Of a stretch of DNA of 64,000 bases, positions 13,249-40,356 are shown piece by piece (position 1 is the stretch's first letter; each line of letters starts with the position of its first letter). Origin of the DNA: Stutzerimonas stutzeri (GTDB lineage: Bacteria; Pseudomonadota; Gammaproteobacteria; Pseudomonadales; Pseudomonadaceae). The notes beneath the pieces were generated by a model. That model had not been told where the DNA came from. It searched no databases and saw only the letters and a program-made list of their open reading frames with translations. Where the stretch lies: assembly GCF_013522825.1 (NCBI RefSeq), contig NZ_JAAMQZ010000030.1, forward strand, positions 1 through 64,000, written 5' to 3'. The translations under genes and the position numbers were made by a program.

Positions 13249-14109
13249 TCAGGCAAACAGCCCGCGAGGTTTGAACAGAAGCACCACGGCCATCAGCATG
13301 TAGATCGCCATGCCGGCGTACTCGGGCACCAGCACGGCGCCCCAGGTCGCGGTCAGCCCCACCAGTAGCGCACCGAGAAAGGCGCCGCGAATGGAGCCCA
13401 GGCCACCGATGACCACCACCACGAAGGCGATGATCAGGATCTGGTTGCCCATGCCTGGATATACCGAGGAAACCGGGGCGGCGATCATCCCGGCAAAGGC
13501 CGTCAGCGCCGCGCCGGCGGCGAACACTAGGGTGTAGATCGCTTTGATGTTGATGCCCAGCCCCTGGACCATCTCGCGGTTGCTGGCGCCGCCGCGAATG
13601 ACGATGCCCAGGCGCGTGCGCTGCAGGATCCAGTACATGCTCAGCGCCACCAGCACGCAGACCGCGGAAATGAACAGCCGGTACACCGGGTATTCGAGGT
13701 TTTCCGTGAGCTGGATGGAGCCGGCGAGGATTTCCGGGATGGGCACGCTGTGCACGTCGTTGCCCCAGGCGATGCTGCGCAGCGAGTCAATCACCAGGAT
13801 CAGGCCGAAGGTCATCAACACCTGATCGAGGTGCTCGCGCTGGTACAGGACGCGCATCAGGCAGCGCTCGATCACCACGCCGAACAGCGCCGCCAGCGGC
13901 AACGCCAGCAGGATCGCGAGAAACAGGTTGCCGGTCAGCGAGGTGGCCCAAAACGCCAGGTAGGCACCCACCATGTATAGCGCGCCGTGGGCCAGGTTGA
14001 TGATGTGCATGATGCCGAAGATCAGCGTCAGGCCGCTGGCAATGAGGAACAGCAGCAGGCCGTATTGCAGGCCGTTCATGGTTTGAATCAGAACAGTGGA
14101 GAAATCCAT
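13249..14109 (-). CDS. Branched-chain-type ABC transporter permease (LivH-like)
   Basis: A 286-residue integral membrane protein of the LivH family. An N-terminal segment, NGLQYGLLLFLIASGLTLIF, is followed by GIMHIINLAHGALYMVGAY, the family signature. Together with the LivM-like protein it would form the translocation pore. It lies 25 bp from the permease start downstream. Confidence 0.94.
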   Translation of the reverse strand: MDFSTVLIQTMNGLQYGLLLFLIASGLTLIFGIMHIINLAHGALYMVGAYLAFWATSLTGNLFLAILLALPLAALFGVVIERCLMRVLYQREHLDQVLMTFGLILVIDSLRSIAWGNDVHSVPIPEILAGSIQLTENLEYPVYRLFISAVCVLVALSMYWILQRTRLGIVIRGGASNREMVQGLGINIKAIYTLVFAAGAALTAFAGMIAAPVSSVYPGMGNQILIIAFVVVVIGGLGSIRGAFLGALLVGLTATWGAVLVPEYAGMAIYMLMAVVLLFKPRGLFA

Positions 14110-32661: not shown

Positions 32662-32692
32662 GAAACCCCGCTCATGCGGGGTTTCTTTTTTC
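32662..32692 (+). terminator. Rho-independent terminator after the AtoE-like gene
   Basis: GAAACCCCGC and GCGGGGTTTC form a ten-base stem with a four-base loop, followed by TTTTTT. It closes the CoA-transferase operon. Confidence 0.93.
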
Positions 32693-32928: not shown

Positions 32929-34467
32929 ATGCTCTTCAACTCCATGGTGTTCATCGCCGGCTTTCTGCCGGTGGTTCTTCTTGGCTTTATCCTGCTTGCA
33001 GGGACTGGCAGGCAACGTTCTGCCGCCATCTGGCTGACGCTGGCGTCGCTGGTGTTCTACGGCTGGTGGAACCCCATCTATGTGCCACTGCTGATCGGCA
33101 GCATGGTGACAAACTACCTGATCGGCGGATGCCTGAGGCGCAGGCCATCGCGGACGCTGCTGGTGCTCGGCGTCGGGGCCAACGTGGCGCTGCTCGGCTA
33201 CTACAAGTACACCGGCTTCCTGTTCGGCACACTCGACGAGGCCTTTGGCCTGGGCTGGTCGGTGGGCGATATCATCCTGCCGCTGGCGATCTCCTTCTTC
33301 ACCTTCCAGCAGATCGCCTATCTGGTGGACGCCCATGACGGCGAAGTGAGCGAACATGATTTCGTCAATTACTGCCTGTTCATCAGCTTCTTCCCGCAAC
33401 TGATCGCCGGCCCGATCACCCATCACGGCGAGATGCTCAAACAATTCAAGGACCACAGCACCTTTCGTCCGCGGCTGGACAATATCTCTCTGGGCCTGAC
33501 GATATTCGTGCTCGGCCTGTTCAAGAAGGTGATCATCGCCGACCCGCTGGGCGCCCAGGCCTCGCCGATCTTCGCGGTCGCTGCCGACGGCAGCGTTCCG
33601 GCGCTTTACGACGCCTGGTTCGGCGCGCTCGCCTATACGCTGCAGATCTACTTCGACTTCTCCGGCTACAGCGATATGGCCATAGGCCTGGGGCTGCTGT
33701 TCGGGCTGCGTCTGCCGGTGAACTTCAACAGCCCGTTCAAGGCGCACAACCTCATCGATTACTGGTCACGCTGGCACATGACGCTGACGCGCTTTCTCAC
33801 GGCCTATATCTACAACCCCATCGTCATGCGCATCACCCGTTCACGCATGGCGGCGGGCAAACCACTGCCTCGCCGGGGGAAGATGAGCCTGGGCACCTTA
33901 GTCGTCCTGGTAGCCTACCCCACCGTGCTGACCATGTTCATCTCCGGCATCTGGCATGGCGCAGGCTGGCAGTTCGTGGTGTTCGGCCTGCTGCATGGCT
34001 TCTACCTGGTGGTCGCCCATGGCTTCCGGGCCTGGAAGGCGCGCCGGGGCCTGCCGCTCGACAGCGACAAGCGCCTGCATCATTGCACCGCCGTGCTGCT
34101 GACCTTCCTCTGCGTGGTCGTGGCGATGGTGTTCTTCCGTGCCGAAAGCGTCCCGGCGGCGCTGGCGATGCTGTCAGGCATGCTCGGCCTGAGCGAGCTG
34201 AGCACCAAGTTCGACAAGTCGGACTACCTCACCCTGGCACTGCTGCTCGCCTTCGTCTGGCTGATGCCCAACGTGCAGCAATGGATGGCGCGTTTCCGCA
34301 CCGCCCTGGATGCGCAGCCACGCGAAAGCTGGCTGCTGCGCTGGCTTCCCGTCGCTTCGTGGAGCCCGACACCGGTCATCGGCGTGGCCATCGGCGTACT
34401 GGGCTTCTTCGCTCTCGCCGTGGCTTTCTCCGTGGCGCCTACCGAGTTTCTCTACTTCCAGTTCTGA
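32929..34467 (+). CDS. MBOAT-family membrane O-acyltransferase (AlgI/DltB-like)
   Basis: A 512-residue polytopic membrane protein with about eleven hydrophobic segments, starting MLFNSMVFIAGFLPVVLLGF as AlgI-type MBOATs do. It carries the family segments YYKYTGFL, QQIAYLVD, and the signature IDYWSRWHMTLTRFL around residue 280. The catalytic His is probably His343 in SGIWHGAGW. AlgI and DltB hand acyl groups across the inner membrane to a periplasmic acceptor. It lies 21 bp before the FkbH-like gene, so it is the first gene of a four-gene operon. The acyl donor is inferred to be the carrier protein two genes downstream. Confidence 0.92.
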   Translation: MLFNSMVFIAGFLPVVLLGFILLAGTGRQRSAAIWLTLASLVFYGWWNPIYVPLLIGSMVTNYLIGGCLRRRPSRTLLVLGVGANVALLGYYKYTGFLFGTLDEAFGLGWSVGDIILPLAISFFTFQQIAYLVDAHDGEVSEHDFVNYCLFISFFPQLIAGPITHHGEMLKQFKDHSTFRPRLDNISLGLTIFVLGLFKKVIIADPLGAQASPIFAVAADGSVPALYDAWFGALAYTLQIYFDFSGYSDMAIGLGLLFGLRLPVNFNSPFKAHNLIDYWSRWHMTLTRFLTAYIYNPIVMRITRSRMAAGKPLPRRGKMSLGTLVVLVAYPTVLTMFISGIWHGAGWQFVVFGLLHGFYLVVAHGFRAWKARRGLPLDSDKRLHHCTAVLLTFLCVVVAMVFFRAESVPAALAMLSGMLGLSELSTKFDKSDYLTLALLLAFVWLMPNVQQWMARFRTALDAQPRESWLLRWLPVASWSPTPVIGVAIGVLGFFALAVAFSVAPTEFLYFQF

Positions 34468-34488
34468 CGCAAAAGGAGCGAATGGCTA

Positions 34489-36408
34489 ATGGATCAGCTT
34501 CTCTGGCTAGCCGAACATCCAGACCTGAGCGCCGCTATCGGCGAAGCCAAGCGCGAGCCCGACCCGCTCGCACGACTCGCAGCGGCCACACGGCTCGCAG
34601 GCTATCGACGGGACTTCACCCTGACCACCCGCCTGGACCGGCTGGCAAGCGAAGGCTTGCAGGCGGTGGCCAACGGCGGAGCATCCGCTTCAGGCTTGCG
34701 GCCTCTGCGTATCGCGCTGCTCGCCTCGCATACGGTGGATCACCTGGTGCCGGCGATTCGCGTCGCCGGCTTGCAGCGGCGCTTGGCGCTCTCGGTGCAT
34801 GTCGCGCCCTATGGCATGTACCGCCAGGCACTGCTGATGGACGACCCGGCGCTGACGAGCTTCGCTCCGCAACTGATCGTCCTGGCGCTGGATGTCCGCG
34901 ACGCGCCCCTGCAACTGCCGCTGGAGGCCTCGCCGGAGGATGTGGATGCAGCCGTGACCGAGCGTGTCGACGAGCTGCGCCTGCTCTGGCGTCGCGCCCG
35001 TGAACGCTTCGCCGCCCAGGTGGTACAGCAAACCCTGGTGCCCGCCGATCCAGCCATCTTCGGCTCGTTCGAGGCACTGGTGCCTGCGGCACCTTATGCA
35101 GTGATCGATCGCTTGAATGCAGCCATCCGCAGCGCCGCCCGGGAAGACGGCGTGCTGCTGATGGATCTCGCCTGGGAAGCGGCGCGCGGCAGCTACGGCG
35201 ACGGCCTGGCCGAACCGCTGCGCTGGCACCAGGCCAAGCAGCTGGTGAGCCCGAACCTGGCGCCCTTGTATGGCGACCAGTTGGCACGCATCGCCGCCGC
35301 CAGCGCCGGCCTGTCGCGCAAATGCCTGGTGCTGGATCTGGACAACACGCTGTGGGGCGGGGTGATCGGTGACGATGGCCTCGATGGCATTCACCTGGGC
35401 CAGGGCTCGCCCAGCGGCGAAGCCTTCCTTGCCTTCCAGCGCTACGCGGCGCTGCTGGCGCGGCGCGGGATCATCCTCGCGGTGTGCAGCAAGAACGACC
35501 TGAGCATCGCTGAGGCGGCGTTCAGCCATCCTGAAATGGCGCTCAAACGCAGCGACATCGCCGCCTTCGTCGCCAACTGGGAAGACAAGGCCGGCAACCT
35601 GCGGCGCATCGCCTCGATGCTGGATATCGGCCTGGACAGCCTGGTCTTCGTCGATGACAACCCGGCCGAGCGCGATATTGTGCGGCGCGAGCTACCAGAG
35701 GTGGCGGTGCCGGAATTGCCCGAAGACGTAGCCGACTACCCGGCACGTGTCGCCGCAGCCGGCTATTTCGAAGCGGTGTCCTTTACTACGGACGACACCA
35801 CGCGCGGGCGCAATTATGCGCTGAACGCCGAGCGCAAGGCCGCCATGAGCCAGGCCACCGACATGGAAGGCTACCTGCGCGGGCTGCAGATGGTGCTGCA
35901 CGCCACGCCCATCGGTGCCGCCGAACTTGTCCGCAGCACCCAGCTGATCAACAAGACCAATCAGTTCAACCTCACCACACGTCGCTACAGCGAGGCGGAG
36001 GTCGAACGCATCGCCGGCGACCCGCGCTCGGTCGCATTGGCGATCCGCATGACCGACAAGTTCGGCGACAACGGTCTGATCAGCGTGGTGCTGGCCCGAC
36101 CGGACGCGACCGTCGCCGACGACGAGCTGCTGATCGACAGCTGGCTGATGAGCTGTCGCGTGCTGGGCCGGCAGGTCGAAGAAGCCGTCCTCGACGTGCT
36201 CGCCAAGGCGGCCAGCACTGCGGGCTACGGTGCATTGATCGGCGAATACCGGCCCACCGAACGCAACGCCATGGTCGCCGAACACTATCCACGGCTGGGC
36301 TTCGTCCAGCATCCGGCGCCCGTCGAGGCCGTCAGCGAAGCGACCTTCTGGCGCTACGCCCTCGGTTCCAACCGCTCCCCCCGCCACTTCATCGAGGTAA
36401 AGGCATGA
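34489..36408 (+). CDS. FkbH-like HAD-IIIC enzyme (acyl loading of carrier protein)
   Basis: A 639-residue protein with an N-terminal SGNH/GDSL-like region of about 270 residues, a HAD domain (DLDNT with Asp283 and Asp285, SKND, FVDDNPAER) and a C-terminal GNAT-like region of about 150 residues containing NQFNLTTRR and SCRVLGRQVEEAVL, both found in FkbH relatives. FkbH enzymes take 1,3-bisphosphoglycerate, dephosphorylate it and load the glyceryl unit on a carrier protein. It overlaps the carrier gene by four bases (ATGA), which supports a direct partnership. The actual acyl group is not known. Confidence 0.9.
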   Translation: MDQLLWLAEHPDLSAAIGEAKREPDPLARLAAATRLAGYRRDFTLTTRLDRLASEGLQAVANGGASASGLRPLRIALLASHTVDHLVPAIRVAGLQRRLALSVHVAPYGMYRQALLMDDPALTSFAPQLIVLALDVRDAPLQLPLEASPEDVDAAVTERVDELRLLWRRARERFAAQVVQQTLVPADPAIFGSFEALVPAAPYAVIDRLNAAIRSAAREDGVLLMDLAWEAARGSYGDGLAEPLRWHQAKQLVSPNLAPLYGDQLARIAAASAGLSRKCLVLDLDNTLWGGVIGDDGLDGIHLGQGSPSGEAFLAFQRYAALLARRGIILAVCSKNDLSIAEAAFSHPEMALKRSDIAAFVANWEDKAGNLRRIASMLDIGLDSLVFVDDNPAERDIVRRELPEVAVPELPEDVADYPARVAAAGYFEAVSFTTDDTTRGRNYALNAERKAAMSQATDMEGYLRGLQMVLHATPIGAAELVRSTQLINKTNQFNLTTRRYSEAEVERIAGDPRSVALAIRMTDKFGDNGLISVVLARPDATVADDELLIDSWLMSCRVLGRQVEEAVLDVLAKAASTAGYGALIGEYRPTERNAMVAEHYPRLGFVQHPAPVEAVSEATFWRYALGSNRSPRHFIEVKA

Positions 36409-36653
36409 CCGAAGCAGACGTAATCGAGGCACTCACCCCGGTCTTTCACGACGTGTTCGACGACGACAGCATCGTGCTGACCCCGGAAATGACCGCCAAT
36501 GACATCGAGGGCTGGGACAGCCAGACCCACGTGATGCTCACGGTCGCCGCCGAACAGCGCTTCGGCATCAAGTTCCGCACCGCGGAGCTGGAATCGCTGC
36601 GCAACGTCGGTCACTTCGCCCAGGTCATCAGCGCCAGACTCGCAGGAAGGTAG
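36405..36653 (+). CDS. Acyl carrier protein of the acylation operon
   Basis: An 82-residue acidic helical protein. Ser39 in GWDSQTHV is the phosphopantetheine attachment site; the usual DSL motif is DSQ here, as in FkbH-associated carriers. The start overlaps the FkbH-like stop, and the next gene begins three bases after its stop. It would carry the C3 acyl unit between the loading enzyme and the MBOAT protein, like DltC does for D-alanine. Confidence 0.92.
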   Translation: MTEADVIEALTPVFHDVFDDDSIVLTPEMTANDIEGWDSQTHVMLTVAAEQRFGIKFRTAELESLRNVGHFAQVISARLAGR

Positions 36654-36656
36654 ACC

Positions 36657-37730
36657 ATGCCCTACACCGCCGAAGCATCCGGGTCCGGCAACACCGGCGA
36701 GCAAGCGGCAGCCAGCGCACCGGACCGGGTCCGCACGCGCTATCTGCTGTCCGTGGTTGCCGGTCTGCTCAGCGCACTGGGGCTGTTCTGCCTGACGCTG
36801 TTCGGCCTGGAGCGAACCGGCAACCTGCCGCCACCGGCGTTCTCCAACAATCTCTGTGTCGACGAGAAACTCAACTTCCTGCGAGGCAACCCGATTGACT
36901 CGCCCAATCTTCTGGTCATCGGCTCATCGGTGGCCTGGCGGCATGTGGATGGCAACGCCCTGGTCCAGGCCATGCCCCGCCTGCGGCCCATGAACGGCGC
37001 TTTCTGCGGGCTGTTCGCCAATCAGTCGACCTATGTTGGCCACTGGCTGCTCGACCGCGAGCCGAGCATTCGCAGCGTCGTGATGATCGCCAATCCACAG
37101 GATTTCGCCGGCTGCTGGAAGGCTCCGACAGCGGTATTCAACCGCGAGCATGTCAGCCCTTATGTGTACGAGGGCGCATCGCACTGGGGCTACTACATGC
37201 GCTATTTCGCACCCGCCTCCCTCGCCCGCAACGCCCTGACCGTAAAGGCGCAGCGCGCCGGTCAGATCGAATGGGACCCGCTGGTGTTCAATCGCTTCGG
37301 CGACGGCCCGTTGCGGACCGACAACACCCGCCACCTGATGTATGGCCGCCCGGATGCGCTGGACCGCAACTGCTTCGATGCGCTGCTGGAAATGAGCGCA
37401 CGACTGCAACACGAAGGCCGCACGCTGATGGTCGTTTCCACCCCGCTGCACCCTGAGTGGAAAGAAAAGTACGACCCGGACGGCGCCTTCCTTGCCGATT
37501 TCGACAGGCGTATCGCCGGTGCCCTGGCCACGACTGGCGGCACCTACTGGAACGCCGACAAGGACTGGAACACGCCGGAGAATGCCTTCGTCGATGCGGT
37601 ACATCTACGCTGGTCAGCCGCACAGGAATTCACCAAGGCACTGGCCGAACAGTTGCGTAAAAGCGCGCCCGGTCCGACTGCTGCAGCCCTGCACAGATCC
37701 TCCGCTGAACGGCGATTGCCGGCGCTTTGA
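36657..37730 (+). CDS. Membrane-anchored SGNH-like protein (DltD/AlgJ role)
   Basis: This 357-residue protein has one N-terminal membrane segment (about residues 29-51), and the rest is predicted periplasmic. LLVIGSSVAWRH with Ser90 or Ser91 resembles SGNH block I, and DAVHLRWSA near residue 320 carries the Asp-x-x-His of block V. AlgJ, AlgX and DltD take this place in other MBOAT pathways, transferring the acyl group to its final acceptor. It is directly downstream of the carrier protein and ends the operon. Sequence identity to named families cannot be judged here. Confidence 0.82.
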   Translation: MPYTAEASGSGNTGEQAAASAPDRVRTRYLLSVVAGLLSALGLFCLTLFGLERTGNLPPPAFSNNLCVDEKLNFLRGNPIDSPNLLVIGSSVAWRHVDGNALVQAMPRLRPMNGAFCGLFANQSTYVGHWLLDREPSIRSVVMIANPQDFAGCWKAPTAVFNREHVSPYVYEGASHWGYYMRYFAPASLARNALTVKAQRAGQIEWDPLVFNRFGDGPLRTDNTRHLMYGRPDALDRNCFDALLEMSARLQHEGRTLMVVSTPLHPEWKEKYDPDGAFLADFDRRIAGALATTGGTYWNADKDWNTPENAFVDAVHLRWSAAQEFTKALAEQLRKSAPGPTAAALHRSSAERRLPAL

Positions 37731-37793
37731 CGCCGTGCTATCTAAGTGACTGTATTCCGTCATATCTCGCAACAGTTCCAGGGAAGAAATCAA

Positions 37794-38009
37794 ATGGACA
37801 CTACAAAGACTGCAGTTACTGGGGCCGAGCGATGGGGAGTCGTCTACCCATACGGCAGCGTACTGGCGATATTCGAAAACGAGCAGGAGGCCTTGTCCGA
37901 AGCGAACTGCTTCGGCGGCGCAGTGGTTCGGATAGTGCAGGATGTCTGGAATGCGGTGAGTGCCGGCAGCGAAACAGGCGCCAGCACGCAAGAGCTGGCG
38001 ACCTCTTGA
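37794..38009 (+). CDS. Small protein of unknown function (71 aa)
   Basis: The frame begins MDTTKTAVTGAERWGVVYPY. GGGAAG lies nine bases before the ATG at 37794, and an earlier GTG at 37746 is less likely. The product is soluble and mildly acidic with no membrane segment. I do not recognise a family. It sits between the acylation operon and a convergent oxidoreductase gene. Confidence 0.6.
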   Translation: MDTTKTAVTGAERWGVVYPYGSVLAIFENEQEALSEANCFGGAVVRIVQDVWNAVSAGSETGASTQELATS

Positions 38010-39300: not shown

Positions 39301-40356
39301 TCAATCCGTACAGGTGTCCGTGAGCCCTGCAACCGTTCTCGCCGAGCAACAAAGTCGAAGATCATCCTGCACCGCCAACGTCTCTTCTCGCCCGCCGCCC
39401 GCCTGTCCCAGACACCACTGGCGCACGGTTACGCCGAGCGCCTCGACAGGTGCATCGGCCGCTTCCACCACAGGCGAGAAATTGAACGCTTCCAGCAGAC
39501 CGGCCAGCACCATTCGTGCCTTGATGAACTGGCCATGCCGAAGCAGACGGGCCACCAGGCCCAGGCGCGAAACAGCCAGCACCGGCACGCGGCGCCAACG
39601 ATGGTAGCGGCGGGCAATGAACAGCTCGTTGCGGATGAAGTGCCGGTGCAGCGCAATCCGCTGCGGGTCGGTTTCGCGGCGGATATCGATCGAGCCGCTG
39701 ACCCGCCGCAGGTGCAGCACCCTGCTCGCGGCCACCAGATAGCCAGGCGTCTGCTGGCTGATGCGCAGGGTGAACTCGGTATCGTCGCCCCACATGAACA
39801 TCGGCGCGAGCGGCAGGCCGTAGCGTTGCAGTGACAGGCGGGGCACCAGGATCGAGACGAAGGTCGCCGGACGCACCGGAACCACGCCGAACCGCAGCAG
39901 GGCCGGCCAGTTTTCATAATCGATGGCGTTGCTGCGCGCATCGACATTTGGCACGTTGGTCAGCAACCCGTCCTCGGTATAGGCAGTGGAAAGCAGGAAG
40001 GAATGGGGCTGAGCCTGGGCATCAAGTGTTTCGGCGGCTTCGACAAGCCGCTGCAGGGCGTCCGGTTCGGGTATGACATCATCGTCCATCATCCAGACGA
40101 AATCGGCGCCCAGCTGGTAGGCAATGCGGAACCCGGCGCTGAAACCACCCGATGCGCCGGTGTTGTGCGACAACTCGTAGACCCTGAGCGTGGGTAGCTG
40201 AAGTTGCAGAAGCATCTCCAGCGTCCCGTCACCGCTGGCATTGTCAACCACGATGATGCCGTCACAGGGGCGGCTCTGGGCATTGATGCTCTCCAGACAG
40301 CGTTTGAGCAAATCCTTGCGTTTGTACGACAGTACGACTGCGTATATCTGTTCCAT
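39301..40356 (-). CDS. Family 2 glycosyltransferase (GlfT2/rhamnosyltransferase-like)
   Basis: A 351-residue GT-A fold enzyme. The nucleotide-sugar region is VVLSYKRKDLLKRCLESI at the N-terminus, the metal site is MDDDVIPEPDAL near residue 90, and a second acidic pair WGDDTEFTLR lies at about 190. It resembles the GlfT2-like branch of galactofuranosyl or rhamnosyl transferases. It has no membrane segment. The gene is followed by the SAF-domain oxidoreductase. The 398 bp between its start and nirB are divergent promoter space. Confidence 0.88.
   Translation of the reverse strand: MEQIYAVVLSYKRKDLLKRCLESINAQSRPCDGIIVVDNASGDGTLEMLLQLQLPTLRVYELSHNTGASGGFSAGFRIAYQLGADFVWMMDDDVIPEPDALQRLVEAAETLDAQAQPHSFLLSTAYTEDGLLTNVPNVDARSNAIDYENWPALLRFGVVPVRPATFVSILVPRLSLQRYGLPLAPMFMWGDDTEFTLRISQQTPGYLVAASRVLHLRRVSGSIDIRRETDPQRIALHRHFIRNELFIARRYHRWRRVPVLAVSRLGLVARLLRHGQFIKARMVLAGLLEAFNFSPVVEAADAPVEALGVTVRQWCLGQAGGGREETLAVQDDLRLCCSARTVAGLTDTCTD

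Follow-up and report, generated by a model that had tools for sequence, protein, structure and literature searches.

The locus described here lies within a 64,000-nucleotide stretch of a Stutzerimonas stutzeri genome (hereafter the window) and consists of four open reading frames (ORFs), all on the forward strand, which encode an MBOAT-family membrane protein, an FkbH-type loading enzyme, an acyl carrier protein (ACP) and an SGNH-fold protein, in that order (Table 1). Together, these genes constitute a predicted MBOAT-SGNH surface-acylation operon equipped with an FkbH loader, with the chemistry of the individual steps being deduced from the protein families involved. Successive genes are spaced by 21 bp, -4 bp (the FkbH- and ACP-encoding frames overlap) and 3 bp, in agreement with the tight packing described in a first-pass annotation of the same DNA, and because these gaps are so small there is no room for a fifth gene, such as a separate dltX. 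The first-pass annotation had mapped the four genes by role onto DltB, DltA, DltC and DltD, and had overlooked the hexapeptide FLYFQF at the C-terminus of the MBOAT protein, which is the most telling feature of the operon.

Table 1. Positions of the operon genes, of their predicted functional residues and of flanking features within the window
Feature	Position	Strand	Basis
Terminator-like hairpin (10 pairs, T6 tail), between a short-chain fatty acid transporter gene (named by eye) and the operon	32662..32685	+
MBOAT protein, 512 aa; candidate carrier-fed acyltransferase with DltB-like core and extra C-terminal helices	32929..34467	+	Family, model
Candidate catalytic His343 (WHG motif)	33955..33957	+	Aligns with DltB His336
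Acyl-shuttle hexapeptide FLYFQF (FXYXXF), C-terminal; Tyr509 is the predicted acyl acceptor	34447..34464	+	Motif of PMC12148441
FkbH-type HAD-IIIC loading enzyme, 639 aa	34489..36408	+	Family model
HAD catalytic Asp283-Leu-Asp285 (DxD motif)	35335..35343	+	Both Asp in 85/85 related loci
Cys556 (WLMSCRVL), candidate acyl-enzyme thiol	36154..36156	+	Conservation
ACP, 82 aa	36405..36653	+	Profile versus solved ACPs
ACP Ser39, predicted phosphopantetheine site (W-D-S)	36519..36521	+	Motif
SGNH-fold protein, 357 aa; predicted periplasmic acyltransferase	36657..37730	+	Predicted fold
Candidate nucleophile Ser91 (GSSVAW)	36927..36929	+	36/36 homologues
Asp313-x-x-His316 (D-A-V-H)	37593..37604	+	35/36 homologues; the remaining one is truncated at a contig end
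87-codon ORF, just 3' of the operon	37746-38009
GT2 transferase	39301-40356

The encoded proteins and their counterparts in known systems

Related loci were obtained by scanning named genome contigs with the window FkbH protein, with the best 80 of 163 related stretches being retained; five annotated plasmid loci were added to give a total of 85 FkbH loci, 38 of which are of the window type (L032-L069) and 47 of which are not. The MBOAT protein passes the cut-off of PF03062 (87.6 bits, cut-off 27) and fails that of the DltB equivalog TIGR04091 (186.6 bits, cut-off 375). Its predicted structure, built from 26 aligned rows (predicted local distance difference test (pLDDT) score of 86), was shown to have DltB as its top fold match (Z 29.3, root-mean-square deviation 2.9 over 380 residues, covering model residues 1-413; Foldseek E 5e-12), with the next MBOATs at Z 21.5 and below. 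The part of the model beyond residue 413 is extra to DltB and comprises two helices (430-445 and 482-501) and the hexapeptide; an extra C-terminal part has likewise been described for PatA (PMC12148441). A search of this genome returned a single MBOAT match, and thus no second MBOAT of the alginate or PatA type.

For comparison, the best MBOAT of each FkbH locus, which does not always adjoin the FkbH-encoding gene, was collected, yielding 68 proteins. The candidate catalytic His343 is kept in 67 of these, the remaining one being cut by a contig end, and the F-x-Y-x-x-F motif was identified at the C-terminus of 60. Two of the eight proteins without the motif are cut by contig ends (L104 and L110), and the other six are low-scoring matches of 78 to 115 bits (L080, L086, L088, L092, L093 and L096). 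The counts among the 68 proteins represent the fair figures: a 28-protein alignment was hand-picked from them after inspection of their C-termini and leaves out the six low-scoring motif-less MBOATs, and invariance within it was therefore not used, as the selection is biased. PatA is known to acetylate itself on the tyrosine of a C-terminal FXYXXF hexapeptide, and the same motif is present on the microprotein DltX of the Dlt system (PMC12148441), where it has been written as FLYFGF (PMC11035591). This shuttle model has been demonstrated for PatA/PatB and reported for Dlt (PMC12148441) and, by analogy, an acyl-tyrosine intermediate is predicted to form on Tyr509.

The assignment of the loading enzyme to the FkbH class, as proposed in the first-pass annotation, was upheld by a score well above the cut-off of TIGR01686 (283.7 versus 146.65 bits); the score against Pfam FkbH_N was below its cut-off (21.1 versus 27). 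The Asp283/Asp285 pair, whose loss had been named in that annotation as a refuting finding, is present in the window and, together with Lys335, Asp389 and Asp390, is conserved in all 85 related loci. A single solved FkbH relative was found at E values up to 0.01, namely BF1531 (3slr), a protein referred to as uncharacterised, which aligns with residues 70-433 (E 2e-57) and leaves the C-terminal third of the window FkbH, including Cys556, uncovered. Cys556 is kept in 83 of the 85 relatives, the other two being cut by contig ends. Cys333 of the CSKN motif was rejected as the nucleophile, being replaced in five of the 85 relatives (L072, L079, L112, L113 and L114), and Cys556 is for this reason the preferred candidate, the role of acyl-carrying thiol being putative for either residue on the basis of conservation. 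FkbH-like enzymes and stand-alone ACPs have been assigned to the formation of glyceryl-ACP from 1,3-bisphosphoglycerate in FK520- and tetronate-type pathways, assignments which were largely proposed from homology (PMC7489565). Membership of this family suggests that the window enzyme may likewise transfer a glyceryl unit from 1,3-bisphosphoglycerate to the ACP.

The ACP scores below all Pfam and NCBIfam cut-offs (best Pfam score 17.7 versus 20.8 bits), and the profile of its family matches solved ACPs (best match 2lml, E 2.5e-29). The W-D-S motif that includes the predicted phosphopantetheine site was observed in 79 of 80 carrier proteins, with W-T-S in the other one. Alignments of FkbH proteins and ACPs comprised 23 rows each, hand-picked from 85 and 80 proteins, respectively.

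No Pfam or NCBIfam model matched the SGNH protein, so that its identity is derived from its predicted fold. The model (25 aligned rows, pLDDT 85) consists of a single long N-terminal helix (residues 27-53), a likely membrane anchor as judged from the model, and an SGNH domain. Fold matches, with Z scores of up to 14.4, were mainly to esterases and thioesterases, with PatB of C. jejuni at 12.7. DltD chains were found among the Foldseek matches from E 3e-5 (3bma) and lie outside the 50 matches shown of the VIA-align fold comparison, which are mostly esterases. Identification of the SGNH protein as DltD by sequence was rejected, as phmmer against solved structures returned only chance-like matches to iron-binding proteins. 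Since a transferase and an esterase are not distinguished by fold alone, the partner protein and the operon must decide between these functions.

When compared with the Dlt system (DltABCDX), which is responsible for D-alanylation of teichoic acid in Gram-positive bacteria, the operon was found to share a loading enzyme with a dedicated carrier, an MBOAT of DltB-like fold, a membrane-anchored SGNH protein (the anchor being predicted here) and an FXYXXF peptide. Conversely, FkbH occupies the slot of the ATP-using ligase DltA (a statement on the operon only, no genome search for DltA having been made), the shuttle peptide is fused to the MBOAT with no DltX present, the host is Gram-negative, the MBOAT scores below the DltB equivalog cut-off and the SGNH protein is unrecognisable as DltD by sequence. 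Because the MBOAT itself bears the hexapeptide, as PatA does, and misses the equivalog cut-off, this is not a plain Dlt system; without DltA in its slot, a DltB equivalog or a separate DltX, the operon stands outside that system, yet would work like one. The role mapping of the first-pass annotation is thus retained in part: fold and operon logic speak for it, with the MBOAT nearest to DltB, FkbH and ACP firmly assigned and the SGNH protein resembling DltD and PatB but also esterases, whereas the fused hexapeptide and the failed equivalog speak against it.

The fused C-terminal FXYXXF motif, the separate SGNH protein and the Gram-negative host are features shared with PatA/PatB and the related MBOAT-SGNH O-acetylation systems of alginate and cellulose; unlike these, the operon possesses its own carrier protein and loader, and its predicted donor is acyl-ACP rather than acetyl-CoA. 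DltB receives its acyl group from the carrier DltC (PMC11035591), and MBOAT-SGNH pathways other than Dlt have been described as being without a similar carrier protein (PMC12148441). As the MBOAT ends in FLYFQF, the operon combines a carrier of the Dlt type with a fused shuttle of the PatA type. With the FkbH/ACP pairs of polyketide and tetronate clusters (Mad7/Mad8 and Mad14/Mad12) it has in common an FkbH, a stand-alone ACP and, presumably, glyceryl-ACP, but it lacks the oxidases, methyltransferase and FabH-like enzyme of those clusters, and the acyl-ACP would instead be offered to a membrane acyltransferase. The operon is thus a variant of known bacterial surface-acylation systems; an FkbH-loaded MBOAT-SGNH surface system was not found in the open-access literature as judged by titles, which is not proof of absence.

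Distribution and gene order

Of the 38 window-type loci, 36 were shown to have the complete set of four genes, arranged as in the window, and the remaining two (L065 and L068) are cut by contig ends; the neighbourhood search suggested in the first-pass annotation thus established that the layout is no one-off. The FkbH/ACP overlap measures 4 bp in 33 of the 36 loci, with start codons chosen automatically. Hosts include Stutzerimonas, Pseudomonas, Halopseudomonas, Polaromonas and Roseomonas-type species. The 36 loci do not represent 36 independent events, since they were found by FkbH similarity and many of them, from Stutzerimonas, are near-copies. In a phylogenetic tree of 82 FkbH proteins (that of the window and those of the 85 loci, after removal of two shorter than 450 residues and two truncated at contig ends), constructed by a quick method and midpoint-rooted for drawing only, the 37 window-type rows, including the window, form one group with a support of 100. 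Neighbouring rows in the tree are of cyanobacterial, Rhodospirillaceae and Rhodobacter-type origin.

A profile search for the SGNH protein across 298 genomes of the family yielded 59 matching genomes, i.e. 49 of 56 within the genus (assuming that the seven non-matching congeners listed are all of the non-matches in the genus) and 10 of 242 outside it. In a set of 37 congeneric genomes, orthologues of the MBOAT and SGNH proteins were found together in 33 (one of them, G004, having an MBOAT truncated at a contig end) and are both absent from four, one of which (G008) encodes a distant MBOAT of 34% identity. FkbH was matched in 23 of the 33 SGNH-bearing congeners. For the other ten, the idea that a different loader occupies the FkbH slot was dropped, as the slot is masked and reads N; 11 stretches from these ten congeners contain masked runs totalling 1917 to 2400 bases each. 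The SGNH gene is present in two copies in G001, G022, G034 and G188, and in the first three of these genomes the full-length MBOAT is doubled as well.

Beyond the window-type loci, FkbH, ACP and MBOAT share loci in other gene orders in cyanobacteria (L070, L071 and L082), many Clostridia, Rhodobacter- and Rhodospirillum-type bacteria (L072 and L076), a Rhodobacteraceae plasmid (L115) and pSymB of S. meliloti (L116). In the cyanobacteria, the gene that follows the MBOAT gene, at the SGNH position, encodes a protein above no Pfam cut-off. No MBOAT was found in 17 of the 47 non-window-type loci, some of which are short or cut.

Acyl group, acceptor and proposed pathway

The first-pass annotation had put forward glycerate or lactate as the acyl group. 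In 19 of the 47 non-window-type loci, FkbH shares the fetched locus with a MaoC-like dehydratase (L070, L071, L075-L077, L082-L084, L087, L089, L090, L096, L098, L102, L103, L105, L106, L109 and L112), which in 11 of these loci forms one protein with an SDR reductase; the MaoC parts of L070 and L082 are just under the Pfam cut-off, and the SDR part of L075 is under its own. MaoC with or without SDR represents a possible acyl-editing module acting on the carrier protein: if a 2,3-dihydroxypropanoyl unit were dehydrated and the 2-keto form so produced were then reduced, lactyl-ACP could, chemically, be obtained, and bryostatin loading provides a precedent for such a conversion. Queries with MaoC and MaoC-SDR against the 38 window-type loci, whose flanks reach at most 10 kb, returned one match, a stand-alone SDR in L039, and no MaoC. 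The MaoC-SDR fusion query gave 11 matches in this genome, ten on the SDR part only and one starting slightly before it, none of which reaches the MaoC domain. Given that no MaoC match was found in the window-type loci and no fusion in the genome, nothing obvious points to a modification of the loaded glyceryl unit and, of the two acids, glycerate is favoured over lactate here; lactate is possible in the MaoC-bearing relatives. That the same machine carries another acyl group, i.e. another C3 or a longer hydroxy acid, such as lactate produced by a dehydratase and reductase encoded elsewhere, is considered unlikely for the same reasons, even though separate stand-alone genes are possible, the MaoC-bearing loci include close outgroups (cyanobacteria and Rhodospirillaceae) and a VOC protein occurs near some cassettes.

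This VOC protein, which is weakly similar to methylmalonyl-CoA epimerase and scores below the cut-off of that model, was observed near several FkbH-ACP cassettes (L063, positions 13428-13853; L069; plasmid loci L114-L116). Speculatively, it might invert a hydroxy acid on the carrier.

With regard to the acceptor, the window neighbours of the operon, an SAF/DRL oxidoreductase and a GT2 transferase, had been taken in the first-pass annotation to support a surface glycan target. As proof of such a target this was rejected, since the SAF oxidoreductase directly adjoins the operon in just two of 37 congeners, namely G002 and the genome that contains the window. Nine more (G014, G017, G023-G025, G027 and G034-G036) have a copy ~10 to 70 kb from the operon, and in the remaining congeners with both genes it is located further away or on another contig. 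The SAF gene also adjoins the operon in S. azotifigens (L053) and in P. baltica (L061), in the latter on the opposite side, and some association between SAF and the operon is therefore likely. In two congeners that were inspected (L129 and L130), a single protein combines the GT2 with an RmlD domain (dTDP-rhamnose synthesis), and the SAF/DRL-GT2 pair is situated ~10 kb from the operon. The window GT2 corresponds to half of this fusion, being 78% identical to residues 1-313 of its L129 version; no counterpart of the RmlD half was found in the window, and two RmlD proteins above the cut-off are encoded in this genome, both on other contigs.

Across the flanks of the 38 window-type loci, RmlD was found in five and the SAF/DRL oxidoreductase in five, both as raw counts. 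Furthermore, two Polaromonas loci carry a row of genes for glucose-1-phosphate cytidylyltransferase, RmlC, SAF/DRL oxidoreductase and an epimerase ~0.4 to 0.5 kb upstream of the operon. The neighbour argument is thus weak as originally stated, and it is the sugar-nucleotide contexts of other loci that favour a glycan acceptor, perhaps one containing deoxysugars. With loading and membrane transfer unchanged, acylation of a small secreted molecule, an envelope protein or a lipid head group in place of a glycan is judged to be quite improbable: most window-type flanks carry no recognised sugar gene, with few query genes having been sought, and a Paroceanicella FkbH-ACP pair lies near lysyl-phosphatidylglycerol genes, but Stutzerimonas, P. 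baltica and Polaromonas all have loci with sugar-nucleotide genes close to the operon, and envelope polymers are the targets of the MBOAT-SGNH pairs listed in PMC12148441. The Paroceanicella pair is plasmid-borne (L114), lies a few genes from those for MprF and an AcvB/VirJ lysyl-phosphatidylglycerol hydrolase, and had no MBOAT found in its stretch. As regards the EPS273 locus of P. stutzeri 273, the main text of PMC5532660 does not mention FkbH, an acyl carrier, alginate or rhamnose, and its acyltransferase passage names an OafA-domain protein.

From the observed gene content, gene order, conservation, catalytic residues and fused shuttle motif, and from the predicted folds, a complete envelope-acylation pathway is proposed (estimated probability of roughly 55%), in which a D-glyceryl group from glycolysis is passed via FkbH, ACP, MBOAT Tyr509 and SGNH Ser91 to a surface glycan, the chemistry of each step following that of the respective families. 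D-Glyceryl is the favoured acyl group as judged from genomic context, and glycolysis would supply it, in place of acyl-CoA or an ATP-driven ligase. FkbH would bind D-1,3-bisphosphoglycerate, with its HAD site removing the 3-phosphate, and would move the activated glyceryl, perhaps through Cys556, to the phosphopantetheine arm of the operon ACP. Glyceryl-ACP would then dock at the cytoplasmic face of the MBOAT, where His343 is presumed to catalyse transmembrane transfer to Tyr509 of FLYFQF. Swinging to the membrane-anchored SGNH protein, this peptide would present the glyceryl group to the Ser91/Asp313/His316 site, which may accept it and transfer it to a hydroxyl group of a glycan in the periplasm or at the surface.

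Several observations weigh against this pathway. Sugar genes flank only a minority of the window-type loci, and the flanking genes vary, the largest shared flank gene being present in nine of the 38 loci. A glycerate-bearing polymer of Stutzerimonas was not encountered among the open-access titles listed. FkbH relatives that load other acids exist. With respect to carrier recognition, six DltC-contacting positions of DltB (taken from PMC11035591) were mapped by hand onto the MBOAT, of which four are similar in character (V299, M300, R306 and R316) and two are not kept (N296 and T303), and Glu40 of DltC corresponds to Met44 in the operon ACP when counted from the pantetheine serine. The top match of the SGNH sequence profile, DltD, is not significant (E 0.087), and general esterases match the SGNH fold equally well or better.

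That the MBOAT-SGNH pair is an ordinary PatA/AlgI-like O-acetyltransferase fed by acetyl-CoA, with the FkbH-ACP product unrelated to it, is deemed very unlikely: a fused C-terminal hexapeptide has been described for carrier-less pathways, which are taken in the same paper to be acyl-CoA users (PMC12148441), but in 36 of 38 loci FkbH and ACP separate MBOAT from SGNH, in frames that overlap or almost abut, differently ordered FkbH, ACP and MBOAT genes are also found together in loci of cyanobacteria, Alphaproteobacteria and Clostridia, and the nearest fold to the MBOAT is that of the carrier-fed DltB.

More tentatively, and with less than even confidence, the glyceryl pathway proposed above may exemplify a third feeding route for envelope acylation, beside acetyl-CoA (PatA) and ATP-activated D-alanine (Dlt), in which a glycolytic acyl phosphate enters through FkbH-ACP cassettes across Pseudomonadota, Cyanobacteria and Clostridia and is exported by the same FXYXXF shuttle. 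Such a route would be modular, with the bare cassette adding glycerate, and versions with MaoC and SDR, often as one fused protein, editing the ACP-bound unit to lactate or a similar acid prior to export. If the glyceryl pathway is correct, the MBOAT-SGNH acylation systems of Gram-negative bacteria would gain a branch that is fed by a carrier and powered by glycolysis, and FkbH enzymes, so far familiar from antibiotic pathways, would be tied to the biology of the cell surface. The pathway would also predict surface polymers with glycerate esters, which are easily lost in alkaline work-up, in most Stutzerimonas species, and would offer a natural test case for the features that lead an MBOAT to accept acyl-ACP rather than acyl-CoA.

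Flanking features

The terminator-like hairpin upstream of the operon is one of two in the scanned stretch, compared with a mean of 3.1 in shuffled sequence; hairpins are thus not enriched, and support for this one comes solely from its quality and position. The 87-codon ORF downstream of the SGNH gene has no Pfam or NCBIfam match, and among loci L032-L111 a homologue in the same place is present in L032 alone.

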